A stretch of 64,000 nucleotides of DNA from Nereocystis luetkeana (Eukaryota; Sar; Phaeophyceae; Laminariales; Laminariaceae): NCBI GenBank assembly GCA_031213475.1, contig JARUPZ010000036.1, positions 3,162,001 through 3,226,000 on the forward strand, given 5' to 3'. The position numbers were made by a program, and so were the translations under genes. Positions within the stretch are counted from its first letter, which is position 1. Each line of letters starts with the position of its first letter. This document shows positions 1,294-63,211 of this stretch, one piece after another. Under the pieces are notes generated by a model that saw only the letters and a list, made by a program, of their open reading frames with translations, did not search any database and was not told the DNA's origin.

Positions 1294-4200
1294 CTGTTTT
1301 TTTTTGTGTTCCGTTTGGTTTAGTTTTGTTATTTTTTTGGCAGTGTGCGCACGGGGAGGCGAGGGCCCGATCAGAGAGGAAGCGACCGCTCGGAAATCGG
1401 AGAGAACCGACCGGAGGGAGAGAAAGAGAACCGGTCGGACGGGACCGATCGAAGAGGGCCGATTCGGGCGGGACCGATCGTAGAGAAATCGGAGCGAATA
1501 AAGGGACCTATCGGAGACAAATCGGAGCAAACTACTCAGTGAGAAACGTTGAAGAGCAAAGGGAGAAATCGGAGAGAAAATCGGAAAAGCAGTACTTGAC
1601 AAGCGTCGGTCGGAGAGGGGTCGGAGAGGAGCCGACGAGGACCGATCGGAGAGGGAGGGACAACCAATTAATCGGATAAAGAGATGAGATAATCAGAAAG
1701 AAATTGGAAACGACCGAACCGAGAGCAGGAGAAAATCAGAACTAAATCGTAAATAAATCAGAGAGAAACAGGAGAGTATTCGGAGAGGGATCGGACGGGA
1801 GTCGGAGAGAAATGGGAAAAGAATCGGAAATAAACCGAAAACAAACCGATCGGGTGAGAAAGGGCGTGGAGCAGTGGAGGGAGCGGGCCGGCCAGCGAGA
1901 GAGCGAGCGAGCGATTGGGGGTGCTCGCAGGGAGAACGAACGCGTGCGTCAGGGCAAAGCAGCGGTTGCCACGGCCCTGCCGAATCGGCAGAACATGCAC
2001 ACCGCTCCGAAAACTACGAGCCTTTGGCAGACCTCGCTGAAACGTACACACGCCGTATAGCACGCTAGCGATCGAAGCGTCATTTTGTATCACACCAAAA
2101 AAAAGTATCACACCAAGCTTGCAAACATGAGGTTCAGGGGATCACACCATGCTTGCAAAGATGAAATTTCCGAGGGAATGTTCGATCTCACAAGCCGAGC
2201 TTTGGCTTTTCGGTTTTTCGAAACACGCGAAATGCTTTCGAAAACCTCTCTTCACAATTTTCGCCTGCTTTTGTTCTCGGCACAAGGCTTACTCGGAAAG
2301 GTCACGCTCGGCGGAAAATTAACGAGCGTATTATTCAATGAACGCCCCAAACCTCCCTTACATTTACGTCCATAATGGTAGGTTTTTGCATCCTGTTTCC
2401 AGTTGGCAAAGAGGAGGAGGAGCAGGAGGAGGAGGAATATACCCTCGGAATCTCTCTCAGGAAAAGGAGCGAAAAAATTAAGAGGGAGAGAGACAGAGAA
2501 TAAAATATCGGGCAAAAAGTCCTCATTTCCCTTCTAAGCACGGCCGGACAAACAACCGTCCCCCACCCCCCTCCCCTACCCCCTCCCTCGCCCTCCCCCT
2601 GCTCATCCCCCTCTCCCTGCCCATCCCCTTCCCCCCCCCTTCTTCACCCTCACCTGGTCACCCGCCGCCATGGAAGCATCGAGCTCCCGAATCTTACCCT
2701 CCACCTTCGCCAGCGCCCCCGTCTCAAAAGTCGTGTACGTCGTCATCGGGAAGTGTCCACCCCCCACACCCGCCGCGCCACCGCCACCGCCGCCGGAACT
2801 CCCCCCAAGCCCAGGGGCGGGAGGCAGAGCCGCGTCCGCGAACCCGCTGGGGTCTCCCATTCCGGTGAAGCCGGTGCCAGCTGCGGGCGCGCCGGATTCG
2901 ACCCTGAAAAAAAGGATGGTGTGAGGTAGGTAGGGTAGGGTGGGGTAGGGTAAGGTAGGGCCGGGTAGGGAAGGGCAGGGTAGGTCAGGGTAGGGTAGGG
3001 TAAGGTAGGGTAGGGTAGGGTAGGGTAGGGTAGGGTAGGGTAGGGAAGGGTAGGATAGGGTAGGGTACGGTAGGGTAGGGTAGGGTACGGTAGGGTAGGG
3101 TACGGCAGGGTAGGGTAGGGTAGGGTAGGGTAAAGCAGGGTAGGGTAGGGTAAGGCAGGGTAGGGTAGGGTAGGGTAGGGTAGAGTAAGGTAAGGTAGGG
3201 TAGAGTAAGGTAGGGTAGAGTAAGGCAGGGCAGGGCAGGGTAGGGTAGGGTAGGGTAGGGTACGGTAGGGTAGGGTACGGCAGGGTAGGGTAGGGTAGGG
3301 TAGGGTAAAGCAGGGTAGGGTAGGGTAAGGCAGGGTAGGGTAGGGTAGGGTAGGGTAGAGTAATGTAAGGTAGGGTAGAGTAAGGTAGGGTAGAGTAAGG
3401 CAGGGCAGGGCAGGGCAGGGTAGGGTAGGGTAGGGTAGGGTAGGGTAGGGTAGGGTGGACAGACAACTGGTGGCGGGGGGTTCTCTGCTTAAGTTGAATC
3501 GACACCGTTTTTCGATCCGGCCAATACGCTCCATCTCATCATGGGACGAAAACTCCCTCCCATCCATACCCCTCATTCCTACTCCGCCGCCACAACCGCA
3601 CCCCCCACCAACCCGTAGCAGTTCAGCGGACAAAGGGCGGGAGACAAAGAACCACAGGACACTGTTTTCTCAAGTTCTGCTGCACTATCGTACACGACAA
3701 AAACATTGCGGCACCGCTGAACATCACATGCGCACGAAGAGGCCACGAAACTTGACCTGAGAAAGCAACCCTAACCCTATTTTTGAAGGCTGTTCGCGGG
3801 ATATGATCCGACCTGCGGGCCGGGTCTGGAAGTGTTCAAAACCTCACGGGTCGGGTCCGGTCGGGTCGGGTCGGGTCAAGACTTTTTCAAATATCACGGG
3901 TTGGGTCGGATCGGGTCAAGAGGTGCTGAAACGGGACGGGTCAAGTCATGACCCGCGAGAAACGGGTCACTCTCGGGTCGGGCCAATATGACCCGCGAGG
4001 TTTTTCCCTGCTGACCCGCGAGTCGGGCCCGCGCATCCGGCCCGCGCATCCAATACTTCAAAAATCATCCCGGTTCCTGCCCTACACTGAATAGCTATCC
4101 TTCGGTATTGTCGTCAAAAATTAAAACACCGCCAAACGTATACCAGGTACTTGCATGCCCGCACCCATCCATACCCACCGCAGCCACATATCACTGTGGG

Positions 4201-7200
4201 ATACAAAAATAAGCATACAATTGGTTTTTGGAACGTCGACCCACGACAGGCCCGTATTTCACGGGTCAATCGGAATCGAAATCTGGCGGGTCGGTTCGGG
4301 TCGGGTCGGGTCGGGTCGGGTCAGGAAGTGTTCAAACTCTACCGCGTCAGGCCGGGTCGGGTCAAGAGGCTTTGAAATCTGGCGGGTCGGGTCGGGTCGG
4401 ATCGGGTCGGGTCGGGTCAGGAGGATTTTAAATCTCACGGGTCGGGTTGGCTCGTGTCAGGAGGCTTCTAAAATCTTGAGGGGTCAGGTCGGGTCGGGTC
4501 AGCTGACCCCACCCAACCCAACCCGACCCGACCCGTGAGGTTTGATCTGGCCCGCGAGCATCCCTGGCGTTTTCCCACTCTCCCCTGCCCCGAGCCTGAA
4601 CGCAAACCAATACGTTACATCGACGGGCACAACCCACCCACGAGGAGACCTGGCACGAGGCTTAGCATGCAAAACTCACAAAAAAAGCGCCAAGAACACA
4701 AGAAAACGAAAAAACGACACACACCACGACGGCGACACCGTAAGACCCCGACCTCCCGCCAGCCAAAACCGCAACACCCCAACCTCGCACCCCTTAACAC
4801 CTCGACACCCAAACTCCACCACCAAACACCGCAACACTCGACACCCCCCCCCACCCCTAACACCCCCAACACCCCAGCACCCGCAAACACCCAATCCCGA
4901 ACGCCCGAACACTCGAACACCCCAACCGGAACACACACCACAAATATCCCACCCTCTGACCCCTCCCACCCCATCAACCAACACGGCTACAACACCACAA
5001 CCCCCCCCCCCCCCAAACACGCCACCCCCCCCACCCCGCAAAACCCAGCCTACCCCAACACCAACACCGATCAACACCCCCCAAACCCCACCCCATTATA
5101 CGACTGCGGCCAGACATGATATGAGTCCCTCCCCCCCCCTCCCCCCATGATCCCCACCCACTCCAACGACAACATCCCAACGCACCGACAACACCACAGC
5201 ACCACAACACACGCCTCACCAACACCCCACCCCCCATCCCCGCCCACACCAATCCCAACCCCCAACAAACCCCAAAGATGTCAAGAAGACGTGTCAGAGC
5301 AACTGCAAAACGTGCGCGCGCCGTCAAGGGAGTGGAGCCGAGAGTTTTCCGCCTCTACAACCGACCGGTAGTCCTTCGGTGTCAGCCAACGCACGTCAAG
5401 GCGACGCTGCTGTCTGTCAAGGGGTGAACATGCTGTCTCCTGTCATCTTTGGGCAACACCCGGACACACACCGACACACACCGACACACGCACCCACTCT
5501 CACCCGATCGTCGGCGGCGTCTCCCCCGCGCGCTTAGTAATATAGTCCGCTATCTCCGCGAGGTAGCTCTGAGGCAGCTCGTTCTTGTCGACGAACCTCG
5601 AGGCAGCCACGAAGGGGTTGTCTCCGTTGTTGTAGCCGATCTGCAGCTTCCTCACCGCGCCCCCCACCCCCTCCACCTCTATTGGGTACACCCTGTCGTA
5701 GGACTCGCCGTCGATAACGCCTCCTTCGCTGGCTCCCATCACCTGCGTTGGTGTGGATATTGTGAGGGGTAGCGGCGGGGGGGTGGGGTGGGGGGGAGAG
5801 GTCGGCGCTGTTGGTGTCAGGCATGCTGACTTGAATGGCGACCGAAAAAAACGATAAACGTGTGTGATGCTGGTGCTATCACTGCTACGATCGCCATATT
5901 GCTGTTGCTGTTACTGTAACTACCGTTGCTACTGTTACTGGTACCACTATCCCAAAATATTATATATACTAGGTACAAGGCTCCCCTCCGGGAAGTGCTT
6001 AGGGGAGTGGCGCAAGAGCGAACTAATGCTCGTATGAAATACCTGCACACCTGTTGAGAACTACTGTAACTGCCTGTTGAGAACTACAGTAACTGCATCC
6101 ACCCATCATCTGAAGAACATACGCACACATTTTTGAGGACAGACTACATAGTGCTGTTTGAGGGAAATAGTGTGCGATCTACTCTACACACAATAAAATA
6201 AAGGAGGGTATATACCGGTATATAAGTGGATATTGATCCTGAACAGATGACTCGCGGAGATCATTTCGTTGCTTGCGGCGTAAATGTAATTACAAAAAGT
6301 TGCGTGAGGTCGAGTTTGGGCTTCACTACTTTGTGACCGGCTGAGTAAAATCCAGCACATACAAGATACTTCCATTCCTCCCTAAAAATATATATATACT
6401 TGGTACCTGGTATGTTTTTTGGCGCTCTGGGTGAAAAAAAACTCTTCACGGACGCAGAGTAGAAGATGCTCGAGAATAACTCGTAGTCCGAGTATACTGA
6501 GAGTATTGAGAGTAGTACTGGAGGCCAATATATAGTGAGTACTGAGAAGGCCCAACTACTGAGAGTATACTGAGACTATTGAGAGTAGTACTGGAGGCCA
6601 ATATAGAGGGAGTACTGAGAAGACCCAACTACTGAGAGTATACTGAGAGTATGGCAGGCAGCAGTACGGAAACTCGAGAATACGGGCAAAAAATATATAC
6701 CCGCAGTAGTGTTGAAACACGAAATACTTGGAGTTCAGAAAATATCGGAATATCTGAAGTGCAGAACCTCGAATCAAATCCCGAACTAGTGCGAGCCCGG
6801 ATGTATCCGCAGAGTAGTATATCCTCAGCATAGCAGCAGTACAGAACCTCGAAATACTACACAGCAGTAATGCTGCGAGTACTCGCAGTATCTCTCTGCT
6901 GCTGCTGCAGTGAGAACCCGGAATACTGCGAGTGCACGAAGTAGTACCTACAGTATTTTCTCGAGCATACCTTGATTTAGTCCCAAGTATTGCGAGCAAC
7001 TAACTAAACTGTCAAAGGTTGAGGTGTATGAAGGCACGCCAAGCGTATGCGCGCCCAAACCCCGTGGCATTGCGTGAAAACACACAACTTGTGTAGGCTA
7101 AGTGTATCATACGGGTAAATAGCAGGTCAGAAAAGCAAGGTGGGTGTGAACAGCGGGTTTTTGGTAGATGCTTCTCGGGGGGCGGGGTGGCTGTTTTCTG

Positions 7201-10200
7201 GTGGAACTGATTTGATGGAGGGATGTTGGTTGTGGTCGTCTTCAAGTGCATCAAATCGGTGTATTTGTCGTATGATACCACGAGTATATTATAATGTACT
7301 GGTGGAAGTTTGAAGAAAATAAAAGAGCAAAGATCGTCCGAGTTGAACCTGCCATGGGTACAGAAGTAACGAAAAAAATAGAACTATCAAGCGCAGTTAG
7401 TCATCGATCATACATAAGCTACATTGTTGTTGTTGTTGTTGTTGTTCTCACATTAACTCTCTGACGAAGGAGTCCGTGGTCACACAAAGGTGCTGGAGCC
7501 CTAGGAAGATCCGAAAAACCATACAGCAGCCAGTACTCACACACCGACATGTTGTGTTTTCACGCAATCTAACACATAGCAGGATAAAATAGCATGTATG
7601 TTCAGCAAACAGTACCGCTTTAAAATGCCGTGTGATATGATACGACAGCATAAGATACGCGTACTGTGACAAAGGAACGTGTACTGGTGCCCTTTCGGCT
7701 GGCTCTAGGATCGGTCAGCAGTGTAGGGCACACAGCAGTCCGTAACTTATGTAGAGTATTTTTGTGCGAATGCTGCTGTACGCGATGCTTGTAAATAGGA
7801 ATGATTTGCTGCGATCCGGGGATGATCGGTACGGAGTAAAAAGTGCCGGTCACACACTGCACGCAGCAGGTACGTGCATAGGCCAATATGCCGAAGACAG
7901 CACAACAACAAACACCACTGCTTGCTGTAGCATTGAGAGTACAGCGCGGATCTGCCACATGTGCATAGTAGGCTACCTGCTGCTGTTGGCGCACTGCCTG
8001 TGTCGAGCACGGCTGGAGCAGTGACAGTGCTTGATCTCACAGCAATACGTAGAAGAAGCAGAGAGAGAGGTGTGTTGTTGCGGGATGATCGATCTCGGGT
8101 CAGAAGAAAGCAGATAGCCACAGCAATACAGCGGCATGTAGACCTGCCACACGTGCCCGTGACTGATCACTGTGCCGCTGCTGGAAGACAGCGTTGCAGT
8201 GCTGTTATGCAGCTGGGCTTAACCACGCTCTCTGCTCTGCTGTTGTATTGGGTTGTCTGTTGTCTGTGTTGTGTGTTGTGTTCAGACGCAAAAGAACGTA
8301 CAGGTAGGTACTACGAAGGACCAAAAAATGACTACATTTCAAAGGTACGTACGTACAAAAAAACGCCTCTCGTATCGAAACCAGGGAAAACGCCTTATCC
8401 TCTCCCGCCGAAAAAAAAACTTTGAGCCCCAGCCACGCGCTCCAGAGTGCACGGATCGCGCCGACGCCTCGACCGATGTGTCCGGACGGGCTTCATGTGC
8501 CCGAGCATTCGGTGTTTTGCCGAAAAGTGCCTCGCACTAAGAGAAAAGTTGGCAAAAAGTACGAAAATTTGACAAACATACGTTTACATGTATATATCAG
8601 ACCGCACGGTAGGGGTACCACTTTTAGCTCTGTTATCTTCCCGTAATTTATTTCGTCGCCCATAGCGTATAGGCTGCGCGAAAGCGACGCTTATGGTAGA
8701 ACTAAATAGTGCCCGTAGATGCATCGTATAGAGCACCCGAGGGAACATATTATCGTACATATTTGAGGAACAAAAAAAACGCGGCAACAAGATAGTGGCG
8801 TGTTGTCCTCGTCACTATCTCAGGGGTAAGATAGTAGTGGCGAGACCCCCCTTTATGTTGGATTTTTCACATCTTGGGAACTTAATGGACCGAACATTGG
8901 TCTCCATATGGAGTGTACAACCGTTTTCTTTGGCATCATATTGCTGAGATGAAGATGAAACAGCCACAGAGTGGTACCGTAACGTGCGGTTTCATATGTG
9001 TAAATACATACTGTACTGCTGTATAGCTACTATTACGGGGGACCACAGTAAATAGGACCTGCGGTACACATGAAAACCCATATATTTCCCTCTTTTCATT
9101 AACAATATTTGGTCCTATTTACTATGGCCCCCCGTAAATATACACAGTGTAGCTACTGTTATTACTAGTGCCAACTTCTCCCACGATTGCTTCAGCAGTT
9201 TACCGCTATTAAACTTGGCAGCGACCCTTATAATACCGAACAAAAAAAAAGGCGCCAGCACTACGGCACCACCAACACCAGCACCCCATCCCGTCACCAA
9301 CACCAACCAACACCAACACCACACCCAATACCAACAACCTGAAACATCAATACCAACACCATCAACGCCAAGGAAACTAGCACCAACACCGCCACTCACC
9401 AACAACCAGCACTAACACCAACACCACCAACACCACCAACGCCGCCACCAGGAACAACTACAACACCCTCGACACCGACTTTTATGGTAAGGCACCTTAC
9501 GAGGCAGTTTATAGAGTTCTTCCATTGCTGTCTCCGGAAATGAAATCACAGGAAATGAAATCAACTCGTTGAAGCTGTCAACCATACGCAAGAAAATCCG
9601 CCTCCTAAGCGGCTCTTGCTTAAACGCAGCTCACCCTTCATGCGACTCGCTCAACTCAACACCCCACGGCGCCTCGTGCTTGGTGTAAGCAATATCTGCC
9701 AGGTCGGCGAACACCAGACGTGCTCCGTCCCGGCATTGTAGGGATGCGAGGGTCTATGGTCATACGACTACGGTCACGCGTGATATGGAGTACATCTCTC
9801 CTACCGAGTGCACCCCCACTCAAAGCCCACCTTACACCCCCCTCAACTCCGTCTCGAAAGGGATGCGTGGTCAATGGTCAGATGACTGAGGCAAGCAACA
9901 AATGAGTACACCCGCCCCCCCCCCCCCCACCCCCATCCACGCCTCCCCCTCCCCCCCATCCACGCCTCCCCCTCCCCCCCATCCACGCCTCCCCCTCCCC
10001 CCCATCCACGCCTCCCCCTCCCCCCCATCCACCCCCCCCCCTTCCCCTCCATCGCCTCCGACTAACCTCGCCAACCTCGATCCAGGCAGACGATGCCGCG
10101 CTCCACTGCGCCGCGATGGCCTTCCCACTTCTCTGGAAAACCTGCACCTGTCCCTCAGACTTTCCGGCGGCAGAGTGTCGCTCCTCCCACTTCGGAAGAG

Positions 10201-13200
10201 CCGCAATTTCCACGGCACTAGGACCCTGAAAAGAGTCACAGATTATATGTACGCGGAAGCACGAGTTAACAAAGTATTGGGTAGGTGTGGTGCTGTATAG
10301 CAGGGCGGTTCACACCGCGCTTGCTGCATCTGAAACGTGGCGCGACGTTTTCAGCGTGAGAAGAGCTCAGAATCATGCCTGGTACGTGGGGTTTCGTACT
10401 GTATTGTAAAGGTTGTTTATACCGCGCTATTATTAATAACAGGACCGTGAAACATGCCAGGATATTTGGCCTCATTACCATCCGAGCGTTTTTTTTCTGG
10501 AATTTCCAAAAGTTTGGAAATGATTGAAAATATGTATCGAGATACGGAGGCGTTCTGTCACTATATATTCGTGAAATTCTTCAGAAATAAAAAAAAAGAA
10601 AGGTATATCTCACATATTTGGGGGGAAAAAAAATCAGGAAAGTCAGGAAGATACTGAGAATAGCGCAAAAAAATGTGGAAATTGTGAGGAAAAAGCTCTC
10701 CGATGAGAATGACCCTTAGAGTGTGAGAAAAACTCAACTTCGTGACATGAAAGCTGTCGCTATCGTACGGCGATTTCCACGGCGCTACGGAGAGCCCTGA
10801 AAAACATCAGGATGCTGAAAACGTACGAACAAACTCATTACGAGGTATACTTGGGTGTTGTAGTGTATTGTAAGGCGAATTCCACCACGCTAGGGCCCTG
10901 AAACGCGTCAGGATATTGGTGATGTAACCGATGTGAAGGGTTTTGTGCTGTAGTGTAAGGCGGTGTACATCGCACTAGGACTGCCAAACCTGTCAGGATA
11001 TTTGCAGCGCAAGAGCAACCCAAAAAAAGGATACTTGGGGTTTGAACTGTATTGCGCGGCGATCTCTAGGCCCCTGAAAAGCGTCAGAAAGTTTGCAGCG
11101 CAAGTCAATGCGACAATAGAGTCTTGTACCGTACTGTTAGGGCGTTCAGTTGGGTACGAAACGAAACCGCCGCGTAGGAGCCTGAAAAGTCTGCGGATAG
11201 TAGTACTTGGTAGTGCAAGAACAACTCCATATGTCATTTATCTTCGTCTTCCGGGCTCGTACTGTATCGTGAGGCGTTGCACTGTATTGCGAGGCGGTTT
11301 GCTGGGATATGAAACCACTACATAGCGCTGACAGCGCCGACAAAATCGGCAAAACGGTTACAGGTAGTTCGTGGTGGTGGCGGTGGTGGTATTACGGGGG
11401 ACCATAGTTAATAGGACCTATGGTATACATAAAAAACCTATGTATTTAACCATTTTTACTAACAAGATTTGGTTCCATTAACTACGGTCTCCCGTAATAG
11501 GGGTGGTCAGAGGTGGTTGGTGGAGGCGGTGGTGGTGGTTGACGGTTGTTAATAGTAGTGATTGGTGTTGGTGTTGGTGGTGTTGGTGGTTGAAAGTTAG
11601 TAGTGACTGGTGGTGGTGGTGGTGGTGGTCGTGGTGGTGACAGCGGTAGCGGTGGGGCAGAGCGATCGTTTCGGCCGGAGCATCGGTATTTAAACCACTT
11701 TTTTTTTGCTTTTGTTCATTGCCATTTTCTGTAAGACAGCCACCTGCTTGGCCTTGGTCTGCCCATCAATAACCCCCTTGTCGAACGCCTGGGCTACCTC
11801 CGCGGGCGCCGCGCGTTCGGCGGCCCTCGTCCATACCCTCACCGCGTGGTCCTGAAAGTTTTGGTGATCATCGCCCGGAACAATCACATAACAAGAGGGG
11901 GGGTGGGGGGGGTGAGAATATAATGTTCCGTCTATCAATACGGATATACCAGGTACCAGGTGTAAAGCAAGCAAAAATAATATGTGAAAATAACTGAAAA
12001 CCTTCATAGAAGGGGCAAACAAACAAAATGAAACCAACTATCAATAAAACAAATTGAATATACAAAGACAAGACAGACCAAAACGAAATATCAAGACGGA
12101 AAAAAACAACACAGAGCTCAGCCACTGCAGCAGTAGCGCCTTCGCGCATTGATCAACTGCTGTAAATCCCCCCCCCCCCTCCCCGAAAAAAGAGAACCAA
12201 ACAAGCTAGCAAACTAACAAACAAACACCCAAGCACGACACACGAAACAAAAGCGAAAAAACTTGAACTCGGATGTGTAAAAACCAGAAAAAAAACAGTT
12301 CACCTGGCAACCGGTGGCGAAGTCCCCGTTAGGAAGGGCGCAGACGCACCACAGCCCAGACGGGTGGGGCAAGACCTGAGCCCTCTCCGCCCCCCTCCAC
12401 ACCACGCACCCGCCACTCTCGTCCACGCTAACCGACTCCCCCGCGTCTCCGGCAAGAACGCATCCCTGCCAAGGAGAGTGGAAACCCAGCGGGTGGGTGG
12501 AACCCGGGGGGTGGGGGACGGTGAAAGCAGGTAAACGAAGAGCCACTGTTTATGTCGTGCTTCACATAACGCTCCGGAACATTCCAGGGCTTTTCGCGGG
12601 TCATGACCCGACCCGCGGGTCGGGTCAGGGGGGTTTCAAAATGTCGCGGGTCGGGTCGGGTCGGGTCAAATTTTTTCAAAATCTCGCGGGTCGGGTCGGG
12701 TCGGGTCAGAAATTTAAAAAATCTCACGGGTCGGGTCGGGTCGGGTCGGGTCGGGTCAAAGGGTTTTGAAATCTAACGGGTCGGGTCGGGTCAAGAGGTT
12801 TTGAAATCTCGCGGATCGGATCGGGTCGGGTCAGGAGGTGTTCAAAATGTCACGGGTCGGGTCGGGTCATGACCCGTGAGATACGGGTCATTCGCGGGTC
12901 AGTTCATCATGACCCGCGATTTGTTTCCGGCTGACCCGCACGTCCGACCCGCGGGTCTGGCCCACGGATCAGTATGTTTGCTAACGTGTGCAGCTACCTG
13001 CCGGAAGGCCGCCTTTGTGACCCGCGGGTCCGGCATTGTACAACAAAAAATACTCGCCGTTTCCCGCCCAAAGACTTCTCTCGTACCGATACTTAGACCT
13101 CCGAGAGCACATCATAGCGTGTAGAATAATCACACGCGAATCCCGGGTCGGATGAAGCCGTACAACGTACAGTAGTATATGATTGGGTTCATTTTCACGC

Positions 13201-16200: not shown

Positions 16201-18758
16201 CGTCAGCACAGCACCCGGCGTTGCAACGATGCTGCATATTCGCTAGCGTAGCACAAGTGTTGCGGCATAGCGTAGGGTTGCGTGGGTAGTCTATGTGGTT
16301 TTGACCGTTAGCACAGCACTCGGTGTTGCAGCGCTGTCGCAGAGTATCGCTAGCGTAGCAGGCGTAGTGCCAGGTACCACCTAGCACAAGCGTCATCCGT
16401 ACAGCTGTTGTCCATCATCGTGACTACAGGGCAGCGTTCGGTGCGTTTCAGTGACGTTTGATACACGCTATATACATCACAGCAAGCGTAAAATAGCCGT
16501 GCGTACGTAGCATAACTTTATTTTTACCCTTGCCACAGCAAGAAGCGCTTCCATGGTGTTGGCGTGTTCGCTGGCGTCGGGAGCGTGTGACAGCATAAAG
16601 CTAGCAGAGCCGCTTCTCTTAATCGTTAGTACCAGGTATGACACAGAATGCGGCGTATCAATCATGGTCATGCTTGCGTCTCCTCTACCCGTGAAGGTGA
16701 GCGCAGTTTACCGTAGCATGGTGTAGCATTGTTGTGTGACACGGCGTAACATGGCGTGGGATAGTCTATACTAACGCTCTCAAGTTGATGACACAGTTAA
16801 AAAAACACTGCAGCGCAAGTTCCGAGTGACAGCTAGCGATGAGCAGAGCGTTGCATGGCGTAGCTTGACGTAGAACACACAAGGGATTCGACGGGTTTTC
16901 GTAGTGATATTTTCATGGTGTTCCGACGAAGTTTTGAAAGTGTTCATCGCCCGTGACTACGGGGGCGCACAGATACCGCAGCGACGACAGTACGTACAGT
17001 AGTTACCAGTAGCAACTGATGCCGCTGCAGCGGTAGGTAACTGTGGCGACTCGCTACAGCGGTAACTACGGTTAGTGGTAATTATTGCAGCCGCTACCGC
17101 TACGGCGGTCACTAGTTACCTACCAGGTATGTAGCGAAATAGTTACCAACGTTGCCGTTGTAGCGACGACAGTACGTACAGTAGTTACCAGTGGTAACTA
17201 CCGCGGCTGCAGCGGTAGGTAACTGTCGCGACTACCTTCGCTACAGCGGTATTCGTGGTGAGCGGTAACAAAGGTGAGCGGTAACTAGTGTAACTGCTGC
17301 CGCTACGGCCGTAACTACGGTAGCTACTGCAGCTTCAGCAGTAACTCGCGGTAACTACTGCCGCCATACCGCTTAAGGGACAGCAGTAGTTACCACGCGC
17401 CACCGCTCGACAGCAGCTACCGCAGCTACCGCTGTCACGAAGGCAGCTAGCTGCCTTACAGCGGCTACGGGAATGCACGGCAGACGCGGGTTTCCCTGTC
17501 GACTTGCCTTTCCGTCCGGGAAGCCCAACACGCAAACCCCGTTCTCGTGCCCACCAAGCGTCGTCACGCAGACCCCTGCAGCGACGTCCCAGACCTTCGC
17601 CGTCCCGTCCCAGCTGCCGCTGATCAGCTTCAGGGCGTGGATAACATCAAAAGGTTGGCAAAAGTAAGGGCGAGGGCGGGGATGGGGGTATAGGGTAACG
17701 GTGACGGCGAGGGTAAGGTTGAGCGTAACGGAAAGGAAAGGGAAAGAGGAGGGGGAGGGGAAGGGGAAGGAGAGGGGCCCAAGGGTAACGACATGGGTGA
17801 GGGGTGATTAACAAGGACAAGGATAAAAAACGAGGGCAAGGGATCGGGTTAAAGGAAGACGTCGTGTGCAGAGGGAGAAGGGGGGTGATAGGCATGATCG
17901 GGATGAGCAGGGGAGCATTCGTCATCAGCAGATCTCCCCCGTCCTAACTAACGCGCCAGCCGTATTCAGACAAAAAAAACGGAGTCCAATGCAACAGGTG
18001 GAGCCTACCCCCCCCCTACAAAACCCACCCGCGCACACGCTTTGGGAGCACAACTGCCTTGGACAACGAATTAGAGCTGAATAATGTTTGCGAAGATAAC
18101 AACTACCCTATGCTAACCACCAGTCTCACCGAAAATATAAGGGAAATTTAGATGGTAACAAAAAATGTCGAAACGTACCTTATATTAATGGTCAGACTGG
18201 TACAGTCGTTGGGCTGTTCAAGAAACACGAAACACACTAACCTCGAGGGTCTATGGTCATACGGCTACGGCCATGCATGACATGAATACCCCCCCCTTCC
18301 CCTTCACCCTCACTCGCTCCTCCACTCCTCCCCCCTTCCCTCCGCCCCCCCCCCCGCCACCTCTCCCCCTGCTTCCTCCCCCCCCTCCCCCCCTCCCCTA
18401 ACCTGTCCCGCCGCAGTCCAGCTGAAAGAGATAACGCCTCCATCGTGACCCTTCAGCTGCCGCTGAGGCTGTCCGAGGTCGTCGTAGATCCTGACGACCT
18501 TATCCATGCAACCCGTTACCAGCCCCCCCCGGGGACACTCGGGTACTATCCCCGGGGGCAGGGCGGCCAGGGAGACTACCCAGTGGCTGTGGTCCGCGAG
18601 CGTGTCTATGGGCGCAGTGGCGAATCGGACGAAGGACATAGACGTACACACGCGCACACCAACCAAACCGAAGAGAGTGGGGAAGGGGGGGGGGGGGCGG
18701 AGGGGGAAGAGAGAGGGGGGGGGGGGAGAGTTAAACCATGTCCAACGAGTGAGATAGG

Positions 18759-18841
<83 letters not shown>

Positions 18842-21907: not shown

Positions 21908-40782
<18,875 letters not shown>

Positions 40783-44097: not shown

Positions 44098-44330
44098 ATT
44101 ACGGGGGACCTCATTGTAAATAGGTCCAAATATTGTTTTTTCGAGAGACCATAGTTAATAGGACCTGTGGTATACATAAAATCCTATATATTAACCTGTT
44201 TTTACTAACAATATTTGGTCCTATTAACTATGGTCCCCCGTAATAGTAAAAATCGCGAAATATATACGTACCTGGTAGGTTTTTGTGTGTACCGTAGGTC
44301 CTATCTGCTATGGCCCCCCGAAATAGTCTA
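44098..44330. mobile_element. nested or abutting M1 copies
   Basis: A 5' fragment (44098-44140), a complete palindrome (about 44143-44246) and a third partial copy (44240-44328) share ends. The third contains CCTGGTA at 44271-44277. Confidence 0.75.
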
Positions 44331-44385: not shown

Positions 44386-44480
44386 CTTTTAGGGCGCATA
44401 TTGCGGTCCCGTTTTGGGAACAAGACCTGTCAAATTCTAAGGCGGTTTGTCCCTAGACTGCGTTGTGCTAAAAAAGGTTA
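44386..44480. mobile_element. M2 palindrome, diverged, followed by TACCTGGTA
   Basis: TGCGGTCCCGTTTTGGG on the left and TTGTCCCTAGACTGCG on the right. Its right edge GGTTA runs straight into CCTGGTA. Confidence 0.75.
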
Positions 44481-44589
44481 CCTGGTATGTAAGTAACCGT
44501 TTGGAAAATACTGCGCCAAAAAAAAGGCAACATATAGTTGACCACATACCGTGGGATGTGTGTGTGTTTTATTTTTTTTACCTTGGTGG

Positions 44590-46405: not shown

Positions 46406-46924
46406 GAAATGATACCAGGTACGTCTTCCGGCTTTTGTCACAGGGTACAGGTAGTGTTGGTATATACCATCGTGTAGAGAGACCACGAACAACAACAACA
46501 ACAACAGAAAAACTAAAAACTAAAAACAGAAAACGGAGCCGCGCTCATCACGACGAGAAAAAAAAAACTTGATACTCGTACAAGTTCGTATTAATAGCTC
46601 GTTGGGATGTTTGTCATTTTTTTTATTTTTTTTTTTCGGTTGTGTTTTTTCTTGATGCGAGTAACCCCCCCCCACCGCCCCCCCTCCCCCCCCCGCCGCC
46701 TGTCTGGGACTAAAAAAAACAAAAACAAAAAACAAGTTTGGGGTGTGTATATAATATATACTGGGTACGAATATGCACACATCCGTACACCCTTGGATCC
46801 CCGCATGTATACACACCATATTTAGGTTCTGCTTACCAGAACATGTTGTCGCGGAGTAGGCCCAGCTGCGACAAAATGGTGGATAGCTCACGATAACTCC
46901 TCTTTCAGCTCTCAGTGAGCCTCA

Positions 46925-48211: not shown

Positions 48212-48326
48212 TTACGGAGGACCATCGTAAATCGGACCAAATATTGTTAGCAAAAATAGGGGCATATATACCTGGTAGGTTTTCGTGTGTACCGCAGGTC
48301 CTATTTACTACGGTCCCCCGTAACAG
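48212..48326. mobile_element. M1 MITE-like palindrome with internal CCTGGTA
   Basis: Ends TTTACGGAGGACCATCGTA and TACTACGGTCCCCCGTAA. TATATACCTGGTAGG sits where uninterrupted copies read TATATAGG. Confidence 0.85.
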
Positions 48327-48446: not shown

Positions 48447-48566
48447 TATTACGGGGGGCCATAGTTAATAAGACCTATGGTACACATATGGCATACATAA
48501 AAACCGATATGTTTTACCATTTTTGCTGACCATATTTGGTCCTATTAACTATGGTCCCCTGTGATA
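48447..48566. mobile_element. M1 MITE-like palindrome beside the gap
   Basis: Ends TTATTACGGGGGGCCATAG and CTATGGTCCCCTGTGATAA. Its right edge is 9 bp from the N run. Confidence 0.82.
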
Positions 48567-50278: not shown

Positions 50279-52192
50279 ACCACCGCCACCACCACCACCA
50301 CCAACACCAACACCAACACCAACACCAACACCATCACCAACACCACCATCAACAACACAAGCGCCAACAAGCACGCCGACTCACCATCGTCGGACGAAGC
50401 CCTCAGGACCCGCACGTCGAGGTTGGGCCGATCCCACGAGCCTATCCTCACCCCGTCTGGAGGTATCCTCAGAGTGGTGCATATGTCCGCCACGACAGCC
50501 TTGCTCGCGGTAGCCGTCAGGGCCAGCACACTTCTAGGGCGCAACATCTGAACAACAAGGCGCCACGGCAGACAGGGCAAAAGCAAGAACAACGTGATAT
50601 TAATAATAATGGAAGAAGGCAAAGAAAAACGAAAATGGGGTTTCGATCGCGGGGAGGGGGGGGGCGGGGAGAGGAGGTGGGAGGAACGGGCGGGGGGGGG
50701 GGGGGGGGGGGGGGGGTAAGGTAACTTTGGGGGGGAGAGGCGAAGGGGGGGGGGGGGGGGGGGGGGGGTAAGGAGGGGCGGAGGGAAGGGGGGGGGGGGG
50801 GGGCATTGATGTCATGCATGGCCGTAGTCGTATGAATACAGACCCTCGCATCCCCACAATGCTGGCGACGGAGAAAGTCGGTTTTTAACCGGCCAGGGGC
50901 AGACATTGCCCGCACTACAGTAAGAGTGAGTCGCCGTGGGGTAGGTGTGTTGGGCGGGTCGCACGAAAGAGTGAACCGCACCACCCTGCCGAGAACAGAA
51001 CCGCTTGTGTAGGCGGGCTTTCTTGCATCGAATGGCAACGCCAAGGGGGCGGGAGGTGGAAACTGACTGCGTGATTTCAAGGAACAAGAGTCGGGGCAGG
51101 AGATGAAACTGGAGGTATGTTTTCAAGGAGGAACGAGGCGTTCGCGCTGTCATCTTCCACCAAACCTCACAAACAGAACAGCAGGAAAACCACCGTTCTG
51201 GAACCTGCAACACTGTTGCTGCTGCTGCTGCTGCCCCCCCCCCGCCCCCAAGTGGGAATGATCGTATCACGCACCGGTAGTGTTTATGGTGAGGCACCCA
51301 AGAGGCAATTACATACTGTAGTACTCCCATTGCTGTCTCTGGAAATGCTTACACCGGAAAGTGAATCAACCCATCGAAGCTGCCATCCATATGCTAGTCC
51401 GCCTCACAAGCGGCTCTTAGTAGGATGCAGCTCACCCTTCATGCGACTCACCAGACACCTCACGTTTCGCTTCGCGCTTGGTGCAAGCAATGTCTGCCTG
51501 GTCGGTGAAAACGCGACACGCTCCGTCCCGGCATTGTAGCGATGCGAGGGCCTATGGCCATAAGACTACGGCCATGCATGAGATCGAGTACATCTCTCCT
51601 GTCGAGTACACCCCCCACCCCTCCCCCCCTCCCCCTCTGTCTACGAATAGGATGGTTGACTGGGTGTGTTGCGCATGGTTGGGTCAAAACAATGGTTAAC
51701 GTCAACAAAAAAAAAAACATCAACATCAACAACGACCTACAACGACCAACAACGACCTATCAGGTATACAAGCATCATACACTATACTATTAATAGTACA
51801 CGCTGGTATGCCAGGCTGTATATCTCGGACCCGGTCCCCCTACCCCCCTCCCCCCCCCCCCCACCCTCCCCCGCCCGAAGCAGCCTACTCCCTCCCCTCC
51901 GTACGCACAGAAGAAAGCAAAATAACTACCTGGTACGAGTTAATCGATAAATAAATGAGAGGTCTCGAGTCTGACTCACGTCTAAGGCCTGCCCGAGGCG
52001 CAGATAGGAAGGGCGGAAGTTGTGTGACCATTGCGACACGCAGTGAGCCTCGTCGACGCAGAGGAGGGACACGGGGGGGAGGGCTCCTGGGGTGCACGCC
52101 AGCCTGCGGAAGGAAGGCGAGCACAGCTTCTCCGGGGACATGAATAACACCTGCAGACAAGACAGGCAGACAGGCAGACAGACAGACAGACA

Positions 52193-52246
<54 letters not shown>

Positions 52247-55200: not shown

Positions 55201-55677
55201 GACCGGTACCGTAAGACACGTTGGTGCTCTAACTAGAAGTACAAATCGGCGCTTATATTGCCAGTCACAGAGGTAGATAGTTGCTCGGCTGAGGATCCCG
55301 CCCCCCCCCACCCCCCCTAATCTGCCAGTTTTTTTTTACAACAAAAACGCTATCCCCGTTACCATAGACGGTCCTCGTAGTTTCGCACAGAGTCAAAGTT
55401 CGCTACCACCACGTCCCTAATTTAAGGGCGGTTTAGCTCAAGTATTGAGGTACAAAGCGCTCTTATATTTTCGGACAGAGCTTACCGTTATGCCCGGAAG
55501 AAGGAGAGCCGGTAGCTGATAGGCCAGACTCTTTCCTGTCCCCGTGGCCAAGACAAGCAAGCTCGGCAAGCCCGCCATGGCCCTCTCCACCCCCCACTCC
55601 TGCCCCTCCCGAAACGCCTCGTGGCCGAACACCCGGCGCAACGCGGAGGCCGCGGTCAGGGGACCATCCTCTTCTAT
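49314..55677 (-). CDS. RECQL4: RecQ-family helicase, RECQL4-like, partial, with frame breaks
   Basis: Family role: ATP-dependent 3'-5' DNA helicase acting in replication and repair. Exons 55486-55677, 53717-53863, 51980-52150, 50385-50547 and 49314-49622 carry the RecQ motifs in order: FREGQ (motif 0), ATGTGKSLAYQLPALL (I), VVVSPLVSLMEDQ (Ia), [20 protein letters not shown] (II), VLALTATASKA (III), a motif-IV region with VVVYVWRQ, and VVVATVAFGLGVDMREIRG with HFDMPKSIENYVQ (V). The segments SHNFRP-Y-LR and VVATVAFG-G-D are closest to RECQL4. Motif VI and the C-terminus are missing, presumably across the gap or lost. Two of the five exons cannot be read in one frame (see their entries). So this is a decaying copy or a locally inaccurate sequence. 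The 5' start is unresolved and the gene may be continuous with the GRF-SAP exons upstream. Confidence 0.87.
49685..49965 (-). repeat. cluster of family A 3' ends
   Basis: Three minus-strand copies, each opening with poly(G) or a G-rich run and TACTCGATATCATGCATG-like sequence, at about 49685, 49748 and 49850. The last extends to CCGGGACGGAGAAAGTCGGG. Confidence 0.75.
50280..50345. repeat. (CCA/CAACAC)n simple repeat
   Basis: ACCACC followed by CACCAACA repeats, next to a ~30-bp poly(C) run at about 50248, in the RecQ intron after motif III. Confidence 0.85.
50385..50547 (-). CDS. RECQL4: RecQ exon, motif III
   Basis: MLRPRSVLALTATASKAVVA then GSWDRPNLDVRVLRASSDD. TATA and the S-W-D-R-P-N-L segment are RecQ hallmarks. 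Acceptor TTGTTCAG/ATG, donor GATG/GTGAGT, phase 1. Confidence 0.94.
50800..51040 (-). repeat. family A copy
   Basis: Poly(G) then ATTGATGTCATGCATGGCCG ... to GAACCGCTTGTGTAGGCGG. Confidence 0.78.
51255..51630 (+). repeat. family A, best full-length copy
   Basis: From ATGATCGTATCACGCACCGG through TTGCTGTCTCTGGAAATG, CTCACCCTTCATGCGACTC and GCATTGTAGCGATGCG to CATGAGATCGAGTACATCTC and CGAGTACACCCCCC. A useful reference for the family. Confidence 0.88.
51980..52150 (-). CDS. RECQL4: RecQ exon, motif II (DEAH box)
   Basis: 57 codons: VLFMSPEKLCSPSFRRL, then [20 protein letters not shown] and FRPSYLRLGQALD. Acceptor GTCTGCAG/GTG, where the upstream polypyrimidine tract is a (CTGT)n array; donor TTAGAC/GTGAGT. 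Confidence 0.94.
52158..52450. repeat. (CAGA)n array beside RecQ motif-II exon
   Basis: Third CTGT/CAGA locus. On the RecQ sense strand it is (CTGT)n and reaches to within 15 bp of the exon acceptor, taking the place of a normal polypyrimidine tract. Confidence 0.95.
52553..52935 (-). repeat. family A copies (short and long)
   Basis: A ~40-bp 3' fragment (52553-52592) and a ~280-bp copy (52655-52935) that begins near GTGCACTCATGTCACG and is truncated at GTGGCTACCTCCAGG. Confidence 0.8.
53150..53570. repeat. 23-bp minisatellite, ~18 units
   Basis: Unit CAATAGGCTACTGCTGTAGTCTC (shown only for identification) with few substitutions. Each unit contains the short dyad CTACTGC/TGTAG. The array lies in the RecQ intron about 150 bp past the motif-Ia exon; diverged units continue to 53690. 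Confidence 0.95.
53717..53863 (-). CDS. RECQL4: RecQ exon, motif Ia, with internal frame break
   Basis: 147 nt between good sites (acceptor CTACAG/GTG, donor GAAG/GTGAGA). The first 24 codons read VVVSPLVSLMEDQMANLPPQ LPGA, then an in-frame TGA occurs at 53786-53788. One base over, the frame reopens as IVSGSHGGLREVAGTVRDLR AGRVE, which continues the family alignment without a gap. The exon length is a multiple of three and its neighbours need phase 0, so a second compensating shift near the 3' end is implied. Confidence 0.8.
53920..54175 (-). repeat. three successive family B copies separated by poly(G)
   Basis: Copies at about 53920-53988, 54013-54076 and 54103-54172 each open with a G run and GTACTCATTTGTTGCTTGCC-like sequence and end CATCCCTTTCGAGACGGAG. 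Confidence 0.82.
54176..55485. other. RecQ intron between motif I and motif Ia (part)
   Basis: Contains a poly(G) run (54195), CAACAA/CACCAC simple sequence (54360-54590) and a (TA)n run near 55035. No exon recognised. Confidence 0.6.
55486..55677 (-). CDS. RECQL4: RecQ exon, motifs 0 and I (Walker A)
   Basis: 64 codons readable: IEEDGPLTAASALRRVFGHE, AFREGQEWGVERAMAG, then ATGTGKSLAYQLPALLLPG. Donor ATAACG/GTAAGC. The true 5' boundary lies in a GGA/GAG-rich stretch upstream and could not be fixed. Confidence 0.88.
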
Positions 55678-55689
55678 CCCTCCCCTCCC

Positions 55690-55885
55690 TCCTCCCCCTC
55701 CTCCTCCTCCTCCTTCTTCTTTTCCTTCTTCCTCCCCTTAATATCATCACCATCATCATCATCATCACCATCATCCTCATCATCATCAATCTCAGCATCT
55801 TCATCATCATCATCATCACCATCACCACCGCCATAACCTTCATCGCTATCGATTTCATCATCATCATCATCATCATCATCATCGG
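55690..55885. repeat. (ATC)n and (TCC)n simple-sequence block
   Basis: CATCAT runs (55738-55885) next to TCC runs (55680-55735). On the minus strand one frame reads a long Asp/Glu run that begins at an ATG at 56049-56051, so it could be an acidic coding segment or an intronic microsatellite. The frame into the RecQ exon does not continue directly. Confidence 0.75.
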
Positions 55886-56063: not shown

Positions 56064-56278
56064 CTGTCAAAGGAAAGCGTAGAGAGAGGAAAAAAACGGG
56101 GGGGTGGCAGAGGAGTGGGGCGGGGGGAGTGGGAGGCAAAGTGAGGTCTGCCAAAGGCCTTGACGACTAACATCGGCGTTTGGGAGGAAACCTGACCTTT
56201 GATGAAAAACGCCTACATATTGTCATTTCGTCCGCCGACTAAACAAACGAAGACTATCGGGTGCCAGGTAAGGTACCT

Positions 56279-56679: not shown

Positions 56680-56711
<32 letters not shown>

Positions 56712-57337: not shown

Positions 57338-60300
57338 CTTTTAGGTTTTGTTCCGTTTTTTGCGGCGGCGGCGGGGGGGGGAGGGGAGGGGGGAAGGGGC
57401 ATGGGGAGCGGGGAATAGAGAGAGACATATTGGAGGGGGGGGGGGGGGGGGAGTGGGAATGGGGAAAGGGTGAGGGCTGGAGTGGGGGGTGGGTGGGAGT
57501 AGGCGGGGGGCGAGGGGTGGCTGTAGAAGCCGGCGGCTATATACCGCTTATTTTTGGTTTTGGTGCACGGTAATCTATCTCCGAATCCTGGGACATTTCC
57601 ACTTCCAAAAAAAAAAACTCAATGTTTTAAAACAAGCCCCCAACTTCCAAAAAAGCAGGCTGATTACTGCCCCAGTCCGGCGACCATTTATACCTGGTAC
57701 AAAAACTCCGTCAAAACAGGGGACCGACACCCCCCCCCCCCCTCTCCCCTTCAATAGTCATACGACTACGGCTGTGCACGATATCGAGTACACCCTCCGC
57801 CCCCCCCCCCCCCCCTCCACCTTTTCCTCTTCCTCCTCTTCCTCCTCCCCGACCTCTCACCAGTCGCTTGACGAGATCATCCTTCTTTCCTCCGCTCGTC
57901 AGCCGCCGCTTCTTCAGCTCCTTCGGTGTCAACAACAACAACAACAACAACAGCAAAAAGTGTAGGGGTGGCATAGGGCAGTAGGGGTGAGATCCATTCA
58001 CGACTATCAGTATCAGTAGTAACTGTTGTTGCCGAGCCATGACAAGGTAGATGAGGCGTTTTGGGGGCATCCTTTTATGGCTGACCGGGGGGCTAGCGAG
58101 GCTTAATACATCCGTTCTGGCCAGGCGTAAAACATCCATTCCGTTATTTTTCCTTCTCTCCAAAGTTCGTGGGGGGTGGGAGGGGGGGGGGTATTTTATT
58201 TTGGATCATAGTTTCTAATTTTTCGTCCAGTTTTGCATTGTCGGGCTCCTGAAAAAGACCAAATCCCTTGGGTGTTCTATATTCCACGCACACAGTAAGG
58301 CCCAAAAAACAAAAAGAGTGCTCGCGCAAGTACTTATTACCATAAAAAACAACGAAATATGTTGAATGCCATATATAGCGTATAGCACATACCTGGACGT
58401 TTCCGCGGAGATAAGTTCGAAAACGTACAAAAATATCACAAAACGGTCAATATACCAGGTAGTGTGTACCGCCGAAATGATTACAAGCCTAGACGGGGCT
58501 ACTCAACTACTATTACTAATTGCGATCCGTGTTTCAACCTATTTTTGCAGTCCCATTCTCAAATACTAATTGCAGTCCCATTTATCGACTACTATACGCA
58601 GGCAATCCCATCTCTCCATAGGCCGCTCTGGGTGTGACTACCAAGTCCCGACGGCCCTACAGTTCCGTCCAGACTGGGGTTACGTTAAAAAAAAAAAAAA
58701 ATGGGGTTATTAGGTCAGCCGCCGTTGGGGTTTCTATTAGAGTGGCGTATACGACGATGTCCACCTCGCCCCCACCCTGCCATACTTGAAAAAAAAAAAA
58801 AAAAAAGTTGCTCCAAAGCAATAATGATATATAGCGTCAGTTGTAGCTGCGATGCCGTTGCTTCCATTATTGAAAAACCGCCGCGGTAAACATTCGGCAG
58901 TTGTTTCCCTGCGCTGCTACTGCTATTATTGCCCCCACGCAATCGTGATAAGAATGTTTACCAATCTGTCCCGAAATATAGCGATCGTGTGTACACTAAT
59001 ATTCATTGTGAAAGATAATTATATTTTGGGCCAGAGTGGTTTGTCCTGAAAGGGTTAGTGGTGGATATACAATTAATATTTCCTTTTTCGGTTCCCCCCC
59101 CTCCTCCTACGCCCCCCTTAAGGCCATGCATGATATCGAGTACACCCCCCCCCCCCCCCCCTCCCTTCCCGCCTCCCGAGTGCACAGGCGTGTCTTGAAT
59201 CTATAAAGCCCGGACAGAAGAAGTATTACGAGATACCAGGAACCGAGGGCGTGTTGCCGCTGTCCTTGTTGTTATCGGTGTTGTTATCGGTGATGATGAG
59301 GTTGCTGCTGCTGTTGTTTTTGCTGTTGTTGTTGTTGTTGTTGTTGTTGTTGTCGGTGCTGTTGTTCTGTCCAGGCCGCGGGTACAAGACAGCACCAGCG
59401 TGGCCACACGCTCCAACAACTCTGAACTACTACTGTGGACGGAAAACAGAAGGAGAAAAAAACACATTCAGGAAAAACACACACACACACACGCAACAAA
59501 ACGTATGAATCGAGCCCCCAGAAAGGAAAACTTGCAGAACGAACAAAAAACTCAGCATGCGTACGGAATATACGCGCAGTGTAACGAAGCACCTTTTTAA
59601 GCTCTGGGATGGGGAGCTTCGAGAAGGTCTTGGTCCACACCGCGCCCTTGCGCTGCCTCCACTGCTCCTTGGACTCCTCCAGCGTCAGCTCCGACAGGAC
59701 TAGAGCCGGGTTATCTTCGGCCCACATGAAGAAGTCGCACCCTTCGCCTGTCGGTTCGGCAGTGGGTTTCGTTCGGGGGGGGCGGTGGCGGTGTGTGGGC
59801 AGATGGGGGGGGGGGGAGGGGGGTTGGTACTTACATTTGTTTATTTATTGCTCTTCCCATTTATCTTCTTCGTCCTTCTATTCTCTCTACCTCCAAGTAT
59901 TAGTCAGAAACTCAGATCCGGGGGGGGGGTCACGTATTATAGCAGCCCCCCCCCCCCCCACACACACACACACACACACTACGGCTCGTACCTCTCTCTC
60001 TCTCTCTCTCCCTCATCTCTCTCTCCCTCATCCTAACAACAGCCGTAACGCAGCTCTGGAGGGTCACATAGCAGGCATCCACCCCCCCACCACCCCCGAC
60101 TACGGTTCGTGCCTTCATTTTGACCGTGAGAAGATGTCAACCATCTCTTCCCACGTTGACTCGCGCTGGTACTGGTACTGGAAGAAACATCCTGAGCTGT
60201 TTCCATTGCCGTACTTCGCCGTGCCCATTGCCGGATGCAACTATTTTTCTATTTTTAGATGGCGCCATATGTTGAACGTACGTATTGCGTAAAGAGTGCA

Positions 60301-61965
60301 GTGCGTGCGCTCTCGGGAGGCATGCCGTTAATATATCCGAGCATGCAAAGTCCGCATTGTGGGTTTCGAAGTGTTGAATATATTGGCGTGTTGTGCTTGC
60401 GCTCTTGGAGGCATTCCGTTTATTATTTCCGAGCGATAGTTGAGGTATATGGGGGGTGGAATACAATGGGGGTTCGTTGGGGTGTGGGCTCTTGGCGGCT
60501 ATTTACGGGGGACCATAGTAAATACCAGTAGGACCTACGGTACAGACAAAAAAAACTAAATATTTCCCTATTTTTATCAACACTATTTTGTCCTATTTGC
60601 TATGGTCCCCCGAGATAGGACACACAGCGTGATAGGTGGTAGATTATTGGGCAATCTGCAGTAGCATTGGCCTACTGCTTAGATCGGCGCGATGTATTCG
60701 TGAGGCTCGTTGGGTCCTTCCACGTCAATTTTCAGTTCGTTCGGTGTTACGCCATTTCTCGTGGTATTTCAACCGAACCAATGAAGCGCCGTCTTAACGC
60801 AAACAAAAATTGTTATAACTCTTCTCGTTTGGCGCTACAATATCAAATACCGGTATCAGCCACTATCAATATCATCGCTGTCAAGGTCTTGACCTCGCGT
60901 CAATGATGCGGGCGGCGTTAGGCGCATAACCTTGTATACATACAAACAGTAGTGCTGATCCCTCTCGTATAGTGCCGATATGCACGCGCCAGCCAATAAT
61001 ACCGGCACTACATATGGTGGCGACCAACCGGCACTAATTACTCCGCATAATTACCACACCGGTTAATCCCATCTGCGCCACGCGGTTTTACAGGCACTAT
61101 GGCGGGCAGACCGGCATTGCTCAGCCCGCACTTTGAAAGGACAGACCACTACGATTAACACTACTGTATCAACACCGTCTCCTATTAATAAAAAAATATA
61201 AACATAAAAAAAACAACCAATGAAAAAAGAAAAAAGAAAAATACATACTATTCAATGCTGTAAAGTATAAAAATAAAAAGATAAAATACAAAACATACAA
61301 AAAACACATACCTGGTACGTAACATCAATAACAAAAAAACTACTATTGGTACTGCAACCTGTAACTCGAGACATCAACGAATGATTTTCACCCACCATCT
61401 TACACCCTATACCACTCTGTCGCCGAAATATAAATCCCCTATACAAATTAACGTTCAATCGAAAAGGTTATTATATTCTGGGACGTAGTGTGTACCAGCC
61501 ATGCTATCACAACTTCACCCGCCTTGTAGGATTGCTGGCGTATTTGCAATACTGGCTTCAACGCACCTCAAAGGAGACTACAGACTGACTACGGTGCCTA
61601 TTGCGGGGGACCCTAGTTAACAGGACCTATGGTGTACATAAAAACCTATATATTTAACCATTTTTACTAACAATATTTGGTCCCGTTAACTATGGCCCCC
61701 CGTAATAGGAGTAAAGCAGAGTGCGACAGAACCAACTGCGTGCAAGTTTCGCGACCAAATTACTTGATTTCAGTGTAGGATGGAAATGCACCCACCTTTC
61801 GTGTGGGGTGTAAACCAGTGTGGGGTGCAAGTTAAACCCTTTAAGAACTGCAGCCCCGTTCGAGGCACAAGCCACTCAAATCCTAAAAGGGCCAAGTTCA
61901 ATATAAAAATAACATTGAGGATATACCTGATAGTATATACATATATATTATATATTATATATACC

Positions 61966-62007
<42 letters not shown>

Positions 62008-63211: not shown

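Follow-up and report, generated by a model that had tools for sequence, protein, structure and literature searches.

In the kelp Nereocystis luetkeana, the nine-base palindrome TACCWGGTA is very probably what a cut-and-paste DNA transposon family leaves behind on excision from TA, the dinucleotide at which it inserts and which it duplicates. The palindrome was studied in a stretch of 64,000 nucleotides (the window; contig C36, positions 3162001-3226000) and in further DNA of the same assembly. The proposal rests on the presence or absence of a 7-bp unit anchored at TA, on mostly independent sites, on a target preference, on nesting and ageing of the scars, and on a second scar, TATTAATA, paired with M1, a miniature inverted-repeat transposable element (MITE) still present in the genome. 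The overhang length, the element ends and the superfamily of the parent we infer.

Abundance of TACCWGGTA

Genome counts were taken from the 465,085,209-bp assembly (1,987 contigs), with the reversed word as control for TACCWGGTA. A 304-kb sample was composed of the window and 240 kb taken at 12 places on 10 further contigs; the smaller 264-kb sample is the same set before a further 40 kb was added.

The window contains 24 copies of TACCWGGTA against 0.50 expected from dinucleotide composition, and 100 dinucleotide shuffles of the window gave a mean of 0.47 and a maximum of 3, with 24 reached in 0 of 100. The word ranks first among all 256 odd palindromes of the form NNNNWNNNN in the window, the runners-up having 8 copies. 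The excess extends to the 304-kb sample (133 exact copies, 2.97 expected) and to the whole genome, where 182,395 copies were counted, far from equality with the 1,744 of the reversed word. The C/G-centred form TACCSGGTA is also found genome-wide (10,882 copies, 1,899 in its control). The density of TACCWGGTA is one per 2.4-2.6 kb. The over-representation on which the original prediction was built is therefore confirmed, and 23 of its 24 positions were recovered as given, one copy starting at 6404 instead of 6405. The central A or T, which had been offered as a parallel to Sleeping Beauty, follows necessarily from the form of an odd palindrome and carries no evidential weight; the equal number of A and T centres (56:56 in 264 kb) reports only random strand orientation, because TACCAGGTA and TACCTGGTA are reverse complements. 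The copies in the window are the following.

4141..4149, scar TACCAGGTA, exact match
6404..6412, scar TACCTGGTA; the one-substitution copy TACTTGGTA at 6397 overlaps it
11947..11955, scar TACCAGGTA; the one-substitution copy TACCAGGTG at 11954 overlaps it
16630..16638, scar TACCAGGTA, exact match
17121..17129, scar TACCAGGTA, exact match
22267..22275, scar TACCTGGTA, exact match
22380..22388, scar TACCTGGTA, exact match
24344..24352, scar TACCTGGTA, exact match
24367..24375, scar TACCAGGTA, exact match
34533..34541, scar TACCAGGTA, exact match
36855..36863, scar TACCAGGTA, within M1 copy 36821-36925
37634..37642, scar TACCTGGTA, within M1 copy 37578-37694
39457..39465, scar TACCTGGTA, exact match
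39479..39487, scar TACCTGGTA, exact match
39668..39676, scar TACCAGGTA, exact match
44269..44277, scar TACCTGGTA, within partial M1 copy 44246-44326
44479..44487, scar TACCTGGTA, exact match
46413..46421, scar TACCAGGTA, exact match
48269..48277, scar TACCTGGTA, within M1 copy 48212-48326
51927..51935, scar TACCTGGTA, exact match
57691..57699, scar TACCTGGTA, exact match
58453..58461, scar TACCAGGTA, exact match
61309..61317, scar TACCTGGTA, exact match
61962..61970, scar TACCAGGTA, exact match

None of these lies inside the five recognised exon segments of the window. A reading of the word as a splice donor (CAG|GTA) was rejected, the base after TACCWGGTA being C or T in 90 of 111 sites. In the literature searched, neither TACCAGGTA, TACCTGGTA and CCTGGTA as whole words nor the phrase "CCAGGTA insertion" was found, and a CCWGG scar was not found in print.

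Gain at TA, target preference, ageing and nesting

Indels between repeat copies were surveyed in the 264-kb sample by a design that did not target the motif. With clean flanks (21 or more matching bases of 24), 18 places with a 7-bp indel were obtained, 15 of them anchored at TA and 14 showing a gain of CCWGG plus TA at a TA. After subtraction of one double-listed and one unclean place, 12 remain, with 10 gains at a bare TA and 2 onto an existing scar; several come from one repeat family, and the number of events is therefore smaller than that of places. Variants of the unit (CTGG, CCGG and CCAGGG) were found at one place each, and 14-bp gains of two units in three rows, two of these from one family. 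The alignment of M1 gives the same picture, its copies differing by CCAGGTA or near variants at varying TA positions, with the majority of copies having no such addition. This includes the extra CCAGGTA or CCTGGTA that had been reported at a TA in the M1 copies 36821-36925, 37578-37694, 44246-44326 and 48212-48326, as well as the related additions CCAGTA (60525), CCAGGG (about 36793) and ACCCGG (about 36727), all of which were seen again in the alignment.

The sites are mostly independent, with 102 of the 112 scar sites in 264 kb kept when those with alike flanks are removed. Compared with a baseline of all 14,198 TA sites, the scar flanks are enriched in A at -6 (0.52 vs 0.24), A/T at -7 (0.83 vs 0.52), A/G at -1 (0.79 vs 0.58) and, more weakly, A at -3 (0.40 vs 0.26). 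The unsymmetrised counts mirror this preference on the right side, which indicates that the TA sites were chosen by dyad context.

One-substitution variants of the scar are in excess, led by transitions, as ageing scars would be: 15 transitions were found in the window against 3.8 expected, with 8 transversions against 8.0, and 70 transitions against 20 and 67 transversions against 42 in 304 kb. As a crude figure, the divergence of the scars is roughly 0.066 substitutions per site.

Scars are also nested in one another. Tandem pairs of the form TACCWGGTACCWGGTA number 15,917 genome-wide (2 in the control), where random insertion at TA predicts 1,331, a ratio of about 12, and 10 pairs at 7-bp spacing occur among the 112 sites of the 264-kb sample. 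By hand count, 19 of the 59 plus-strand tandem pairs listed, all on contig C1, have mixed orientation, a share between none (slippage alone) and half (independent insertion), so many pairs look re-inserted and some slipped. Taken together, the indels, flanks, ageing and nesting support a scar made very often at a duplicated TA. Scars are also present in both arms of a 1.2-kb inverted duplication with 90.5% identity (L014, 8730-9974; C1, about 218730-219974).

M1 and a second excision scar

The MITE M1 inserts at TA, measures about 105-110 bp and has the ends TTACGGGGG and the terminal inverted repeat (TIR) TTACGGGGGACCATAG. Its duplication of the TA target is seen in filled and empty pairs at two places, on C20 and C1, and 18-mers of TA plus a perfect M1 end occur 26,369 times genome-wide against 0 in the control. 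The 264-kb sample contains 27 full-length copies, 4 of them with an exact TACCWGGTA.

Were M1 to excise in the Tc1 manner and leave two bases of each element end, the predicted scar would be TATTAATA. This word is found 11 times in the window (0.41 on average and at most 2 in shuffles) and 93,112 times genome-wide (10,689 in the control). It also appears as TA-anchored 6-bp indels in 7 rows, corresponding to 5 distinct places of the 42 with a 6-bp indel. Its flanks favour T-A-C before TA (0.59, 0.50 and 0.51), and the insertion sites of M1 likewise have T at -3, A at -2 and C at -1 in 17, 17 and 13 of 26. TATTAATA is a second class of excision scar, attributed to M1 because it agrees with the ends and the target preference of that element, and the pair serves as an internal control for the CCWGG scar. 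Short and bounded by TIRs, with TA duplication at empty sites and a terminal-base scar at its own target, M1 has features of a Tc1/mariner-type MITE. The target preferences of TACCWGGTA and TATTAATA differ, suggesting separate machineries for the two scars; M1 is apparently not the maker of TACCWGGTA, its ends and target fitting TATTAATA.

The second scar and the remaining M1 copies of the window are placed as follows.

10431..10438, second scar TATTAATA, with further starts at 23650, 24010, 25133, 36560, 40222, 45703, 46589, 50598, 51788 and 61183
9030..9137, M1 copy without exact scar
11390..11500, M1 copy without exact scar
23428..23533, M1 copy without exact scar; TACCAGTA at 23481, no clear insertion
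35838..35946, M1 copy without exact scar
36700..36823, M1 copy containing two variant scars, TACCAGGGTA (about 36793) and ACCCGG (about 36727)
38350..38735, M1 copies, partly in a tandem array of 114-bp units (38394-38734)
44139..44246, M1 copy without exact scar
48447..48566, M1 copy without exact scar
60503..60618, M1 copy with variant scar TACCAGTA (60523)
61598..61708, M1 copy without exact scar, used as profile seed
63702..63813, M1 copy without exact scar

The array at 38394-38734 has three tandem 114-bp units that include M1, so tandem duplication can also spread MITE copies. A second TA-flanked palindromic MITE family, of about 91 bp and with the TIR ACCCYTTTAGAACCGC, lies at 35598-35691 of the window and is also found on C2 and C5. 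Patterns of M1 matched 0 stretches in the collections of viral contigs and genome contigs.

Proposed mechanism and comparison with known systems

Here it is proposed that the parent would insert at TA and duplicate it, and that its excision would leave the two TAs in place together with about five terminal bases (CCAGG). Staggered cuts would fall five bases inside the element ends, and the two resulting 3' CCAGG overhangs could pair at four of five positions with the central A.A unpaired. End joining would then leave one copy of the five bases, converting TA uniformly to TACCWGGTA with a net gain of 7 bp, as in the scheme of Sleeping Beauty but with an overhang that is longer. By the logic that applies to M1, the parent would begin with CCAGG or CCTGG; it would have been active for long, re-entering its own scars, and its intact copies would now be rare or gone. 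The product that keeps both five-base ends, TACCAGGCCTGGTA, is nearly absent (10 copies, 1 in the control), which fits one annealed copy. It is also possible, although this extension is rather doubtful, that almost every copy of the CCWGG element, with its unusually long, self-pairing five-base overhang, is taken out again, whether because excision is very strong or because the host has a removal step, leaving at least 182,000 inherited scars and fewer than about 4,600 intact exact-end copies.

In the Sleeping Beauty scar, too, the dyad has an unpaired centre. Cutting by Sleeping Beauty takes place three bases within the element ends, and the overhang persists as the scar after end joining (PMC7827188); Tc1/mariner footprints are given as 2-4 bp, with a palindromic target preference around TA for ZB (PMC7913693). 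The CCWGG scar is like these systems in its TA target, its TA duplication, its proposed origin from terminal bases and its palindromic target preference; insertion at and duplication of TA are read from TA versus TA-CCWGG-TA in repeat copies, the element itself being unseen. It is unlike them in a target preference that reaches -6/-7 and in the lack of any parent seen at 182,000 scars. For the Stowaway MITEs and Osmar elements of grasses, PMC1925063 describes footprints of 1-4 bp of TIR fragments between duplicated TAs, as well as re-insertion at the footprint TA, both of which resemble the present case; the grass footprints, however, are varied and come from single genes, whereas here one uniform five-base form is found genome-wide. 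Among brown algae, the Mariner-Tc1 elements of Ectocarpus (for example TcMar-N1_Ec32) are mostly MITEs with almost 12,000 copies (PMC12477816). The words excision and footprint have 0 occurrences in the main text of PMC12477816. Excision scars are known in kind, and this one is unusual in its length, its uniformity, its number and the absence of its maker from the sampled DNA.

The missing parent element

Several observations weigh against a transposon with a five-base overhang as the source of the scar. The five bases exceed the 2-4 bp of Tc1/mariner footprints (PMC7913693) and the three-base overhang of Sleeping Beauty (PMC7827188), so that the scar departs from the footprint length of the group it otherwise resembles. 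Without the flank filter, the scar spans 16 of the 42 distinct places with a 7-bp indel in 264 kb. The full product of two three-base ends, TACCATGGTA, is also in excess, five-fold over its control (3,002 vs 623).

The same holds for the search for the parent. Inverted TACCWGG ends no more than 8 kb apart gave 11 hits in 264 kb; the one exact hit lies in the 1.2-kb inverted duplication and the remaining 10 are inexact pairs, several of them between tandem scars. The further 40 kb added one inexact hit, again between tandem scars. No TA-bounded inverted-repeat family with CC ends was found in the 264 kb, where such surveys returned M1 and one other clear family, or in the further 40 kb. No repeat family was found to begin at a half-site (100 half-sites in 264 kb, 114 in 304 kb): alike half-sites continue upstream, except in a 29-bp palindrome, on both its sides, and in one pair, rejected as a chance variant (consensus TAGTAGG) within a longer repeat. 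Half-sites outside scars amount to 114 against 90 expected in 304 kb, a small excess for which decayed scars could account, and the histogram of half-site spacing has no clear peak. Among the 60 listed of 128 large empty/filled insertion candidates, the ones with matching ends are M1. Two TA-bounded palindromes with CCTGG...CCAGG or CCAGG...CCTGG ends, of 29 bp (C1:28357-28385) and 37 bp (L075:1063-1099), could be internally deleted remnants of the parent, although two such pairs may be chance.

A transposase was sought as well. The Tc1 domain DDE_3 (PF13358) had 0 matches in the genome at E 0.001, with introns disregarded, and the pogo-type DDE_1 (PF03184) was found at 28 places, which were not connected with the scar. 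At three DDE_1 loci that were fetched, terminal repeats bounded by TA are lacking within about 2.7 kb; another DDE_1 place is 100% identical to an unplaced duplicate, and element ends are not definable there. The DDE_1 genes at L073-L075 are low-copy and pogo/Tc5-like. Those at L074 and L075 seem to have no catalytic aspartates, judged by the motif, and may be host genes. Two 6-kb stretches, L076 on C2 and L077 on the unplaced C809, are 100% identical over 5,920 bp, likely as duplicated assembly, and contain neither scar.

Zero intact copies in 304 kb sets a 95% bound of fewer than about 4,590 exact-end parent copies genome-wide. In 264 kb, M1 has 27 full copies and about 50 TATTAATA scars, whereas the CCWGG family has 0 copies found and 112 scars. 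The original prediction is accordingly supported in part: an excision scar made very often at duplicated TA sites is supported, while intact elements with inverted TACCAGG...CCTGGTA ends were searched for and none was found in 304 kb, and the searches for DDE_3 and DDE_1 yielded no gene tied to the scar.

Alternative explanations

The closest alternative, a variant of the same excision model, has a three-base CCA overhang losing one base at the junction (CC-A/T-GG). It is in line with the excess of TACCATGGTA and with the three-base overhangs of mariner and Sleeping Beauty (PMC7827188), but the five-base scars number about 77 times the excess of the six-base product, and CCA overhangs are unable to pair mutually whereas CCAGG overhangs can; this variant is accordingly considered improbable. 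A programmed or near-obligate removal from the germ line in each generation would explain very many scars with no intact copy in the sampled DNA, next to M1, which by contrast has both copies (26,369 perfect ends) and scars. The internal eliminated sequences of ciliates have TA boundaries and nearly every copy is removed, the removal being somatic. Unlike these, the scars here look inherited and mutate, with transition-biased substitutions as in heritable neutral scars, and paralogous repeat copies vary in scar presence or absence. Programmed elimination is not known to us in brown algae, no search having been aimed at it, and this account is considered quite improbable.

Slippage of TACCWGG as the 7-bp unit of a satellite is compatible with the 7-bp-spaced tandem pairs (10 among the 112 sites and 15,917 genome-wide), with the heptamer arrays in 40 stretches of bacterial metagenome-assembled genomes (MAGs), and with the 40 of 59 listed pairs in the same orientation, which is above half and makes some slippage likely. 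As the general origin it is very improbable, the majority of scars being single, 19 of the 59 listed pairs having mixed A/T, which slippage cannot produce, and single 7-bp gains occurring at a bare TA in 10 places. Descent from a few ancestral repeats carrying the palindrome around the genome, named in the original prediction among the outcomes that would refute it, applies to a minority of scars, those in duplicated regions like the inverted duplication of 1.2 kb on C1, and several indel places do come from one family; it fails as the main cause, with 102 of the 112 sites having unlike flanks and the scar lying at differing TA positions among the M1 copies, few of which have it in exact form, and is given hardly any weight. 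A functional binding or recognition palindrome under selection would suit the exact dyad and its density, but the palindrome is gained and lost as an exact 7-bp unit at TA, with neutral-looking decay and a dyad flank preference, and this account is regarded as equally remote. The excision scar of a TA-inserting transposon is the explanation retained here.

The 40 MAG stretches (L029-L068) are heptamer tandem arrays, several per MAG, and include Acidimicrobiia, Deltaproteobacteria, Gemmatimonadetes, Planctomycetota and Chitinophaga. They were matched by a triple-scar pattern, which gave 0 stretches in viral contigs.

Significance

Repeat annotation counts the elements that remain, and the past movement of an excising family is largely invisible to it. 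A fixed nine-base scar, at one per 2.4-2.6 kb, would keep a record of past jumps and would bring both a target preference and an ageing clock of its own. The TATTAATA scar, whose parent M1 is still present, calibrates the record of the CCWGG scar. With M1 persisting and the CCWGG family not found, why some families persist and others vanish becomes directly testable.

Genes in the window

Scans of the window, which is nuclear DNA, for tRNA genes and Rfam families gave no match. A PLAA-like gene, with exons for WD40 and PFU ubiquitin-binding domains, occupies about 15 kb of the minus strand (5503-20198), its introns being long and rich in repeats. The PFU exon has 12 protein matches, which point to a brown alga or a near relative; identity is 74% in Ectocarpus sp. 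4 AP-2014, with 46% of the query covered, and up to 87% in others. A RecQ-like helicase segment, read by eye, lies at 55441-55737 on the minus strand.

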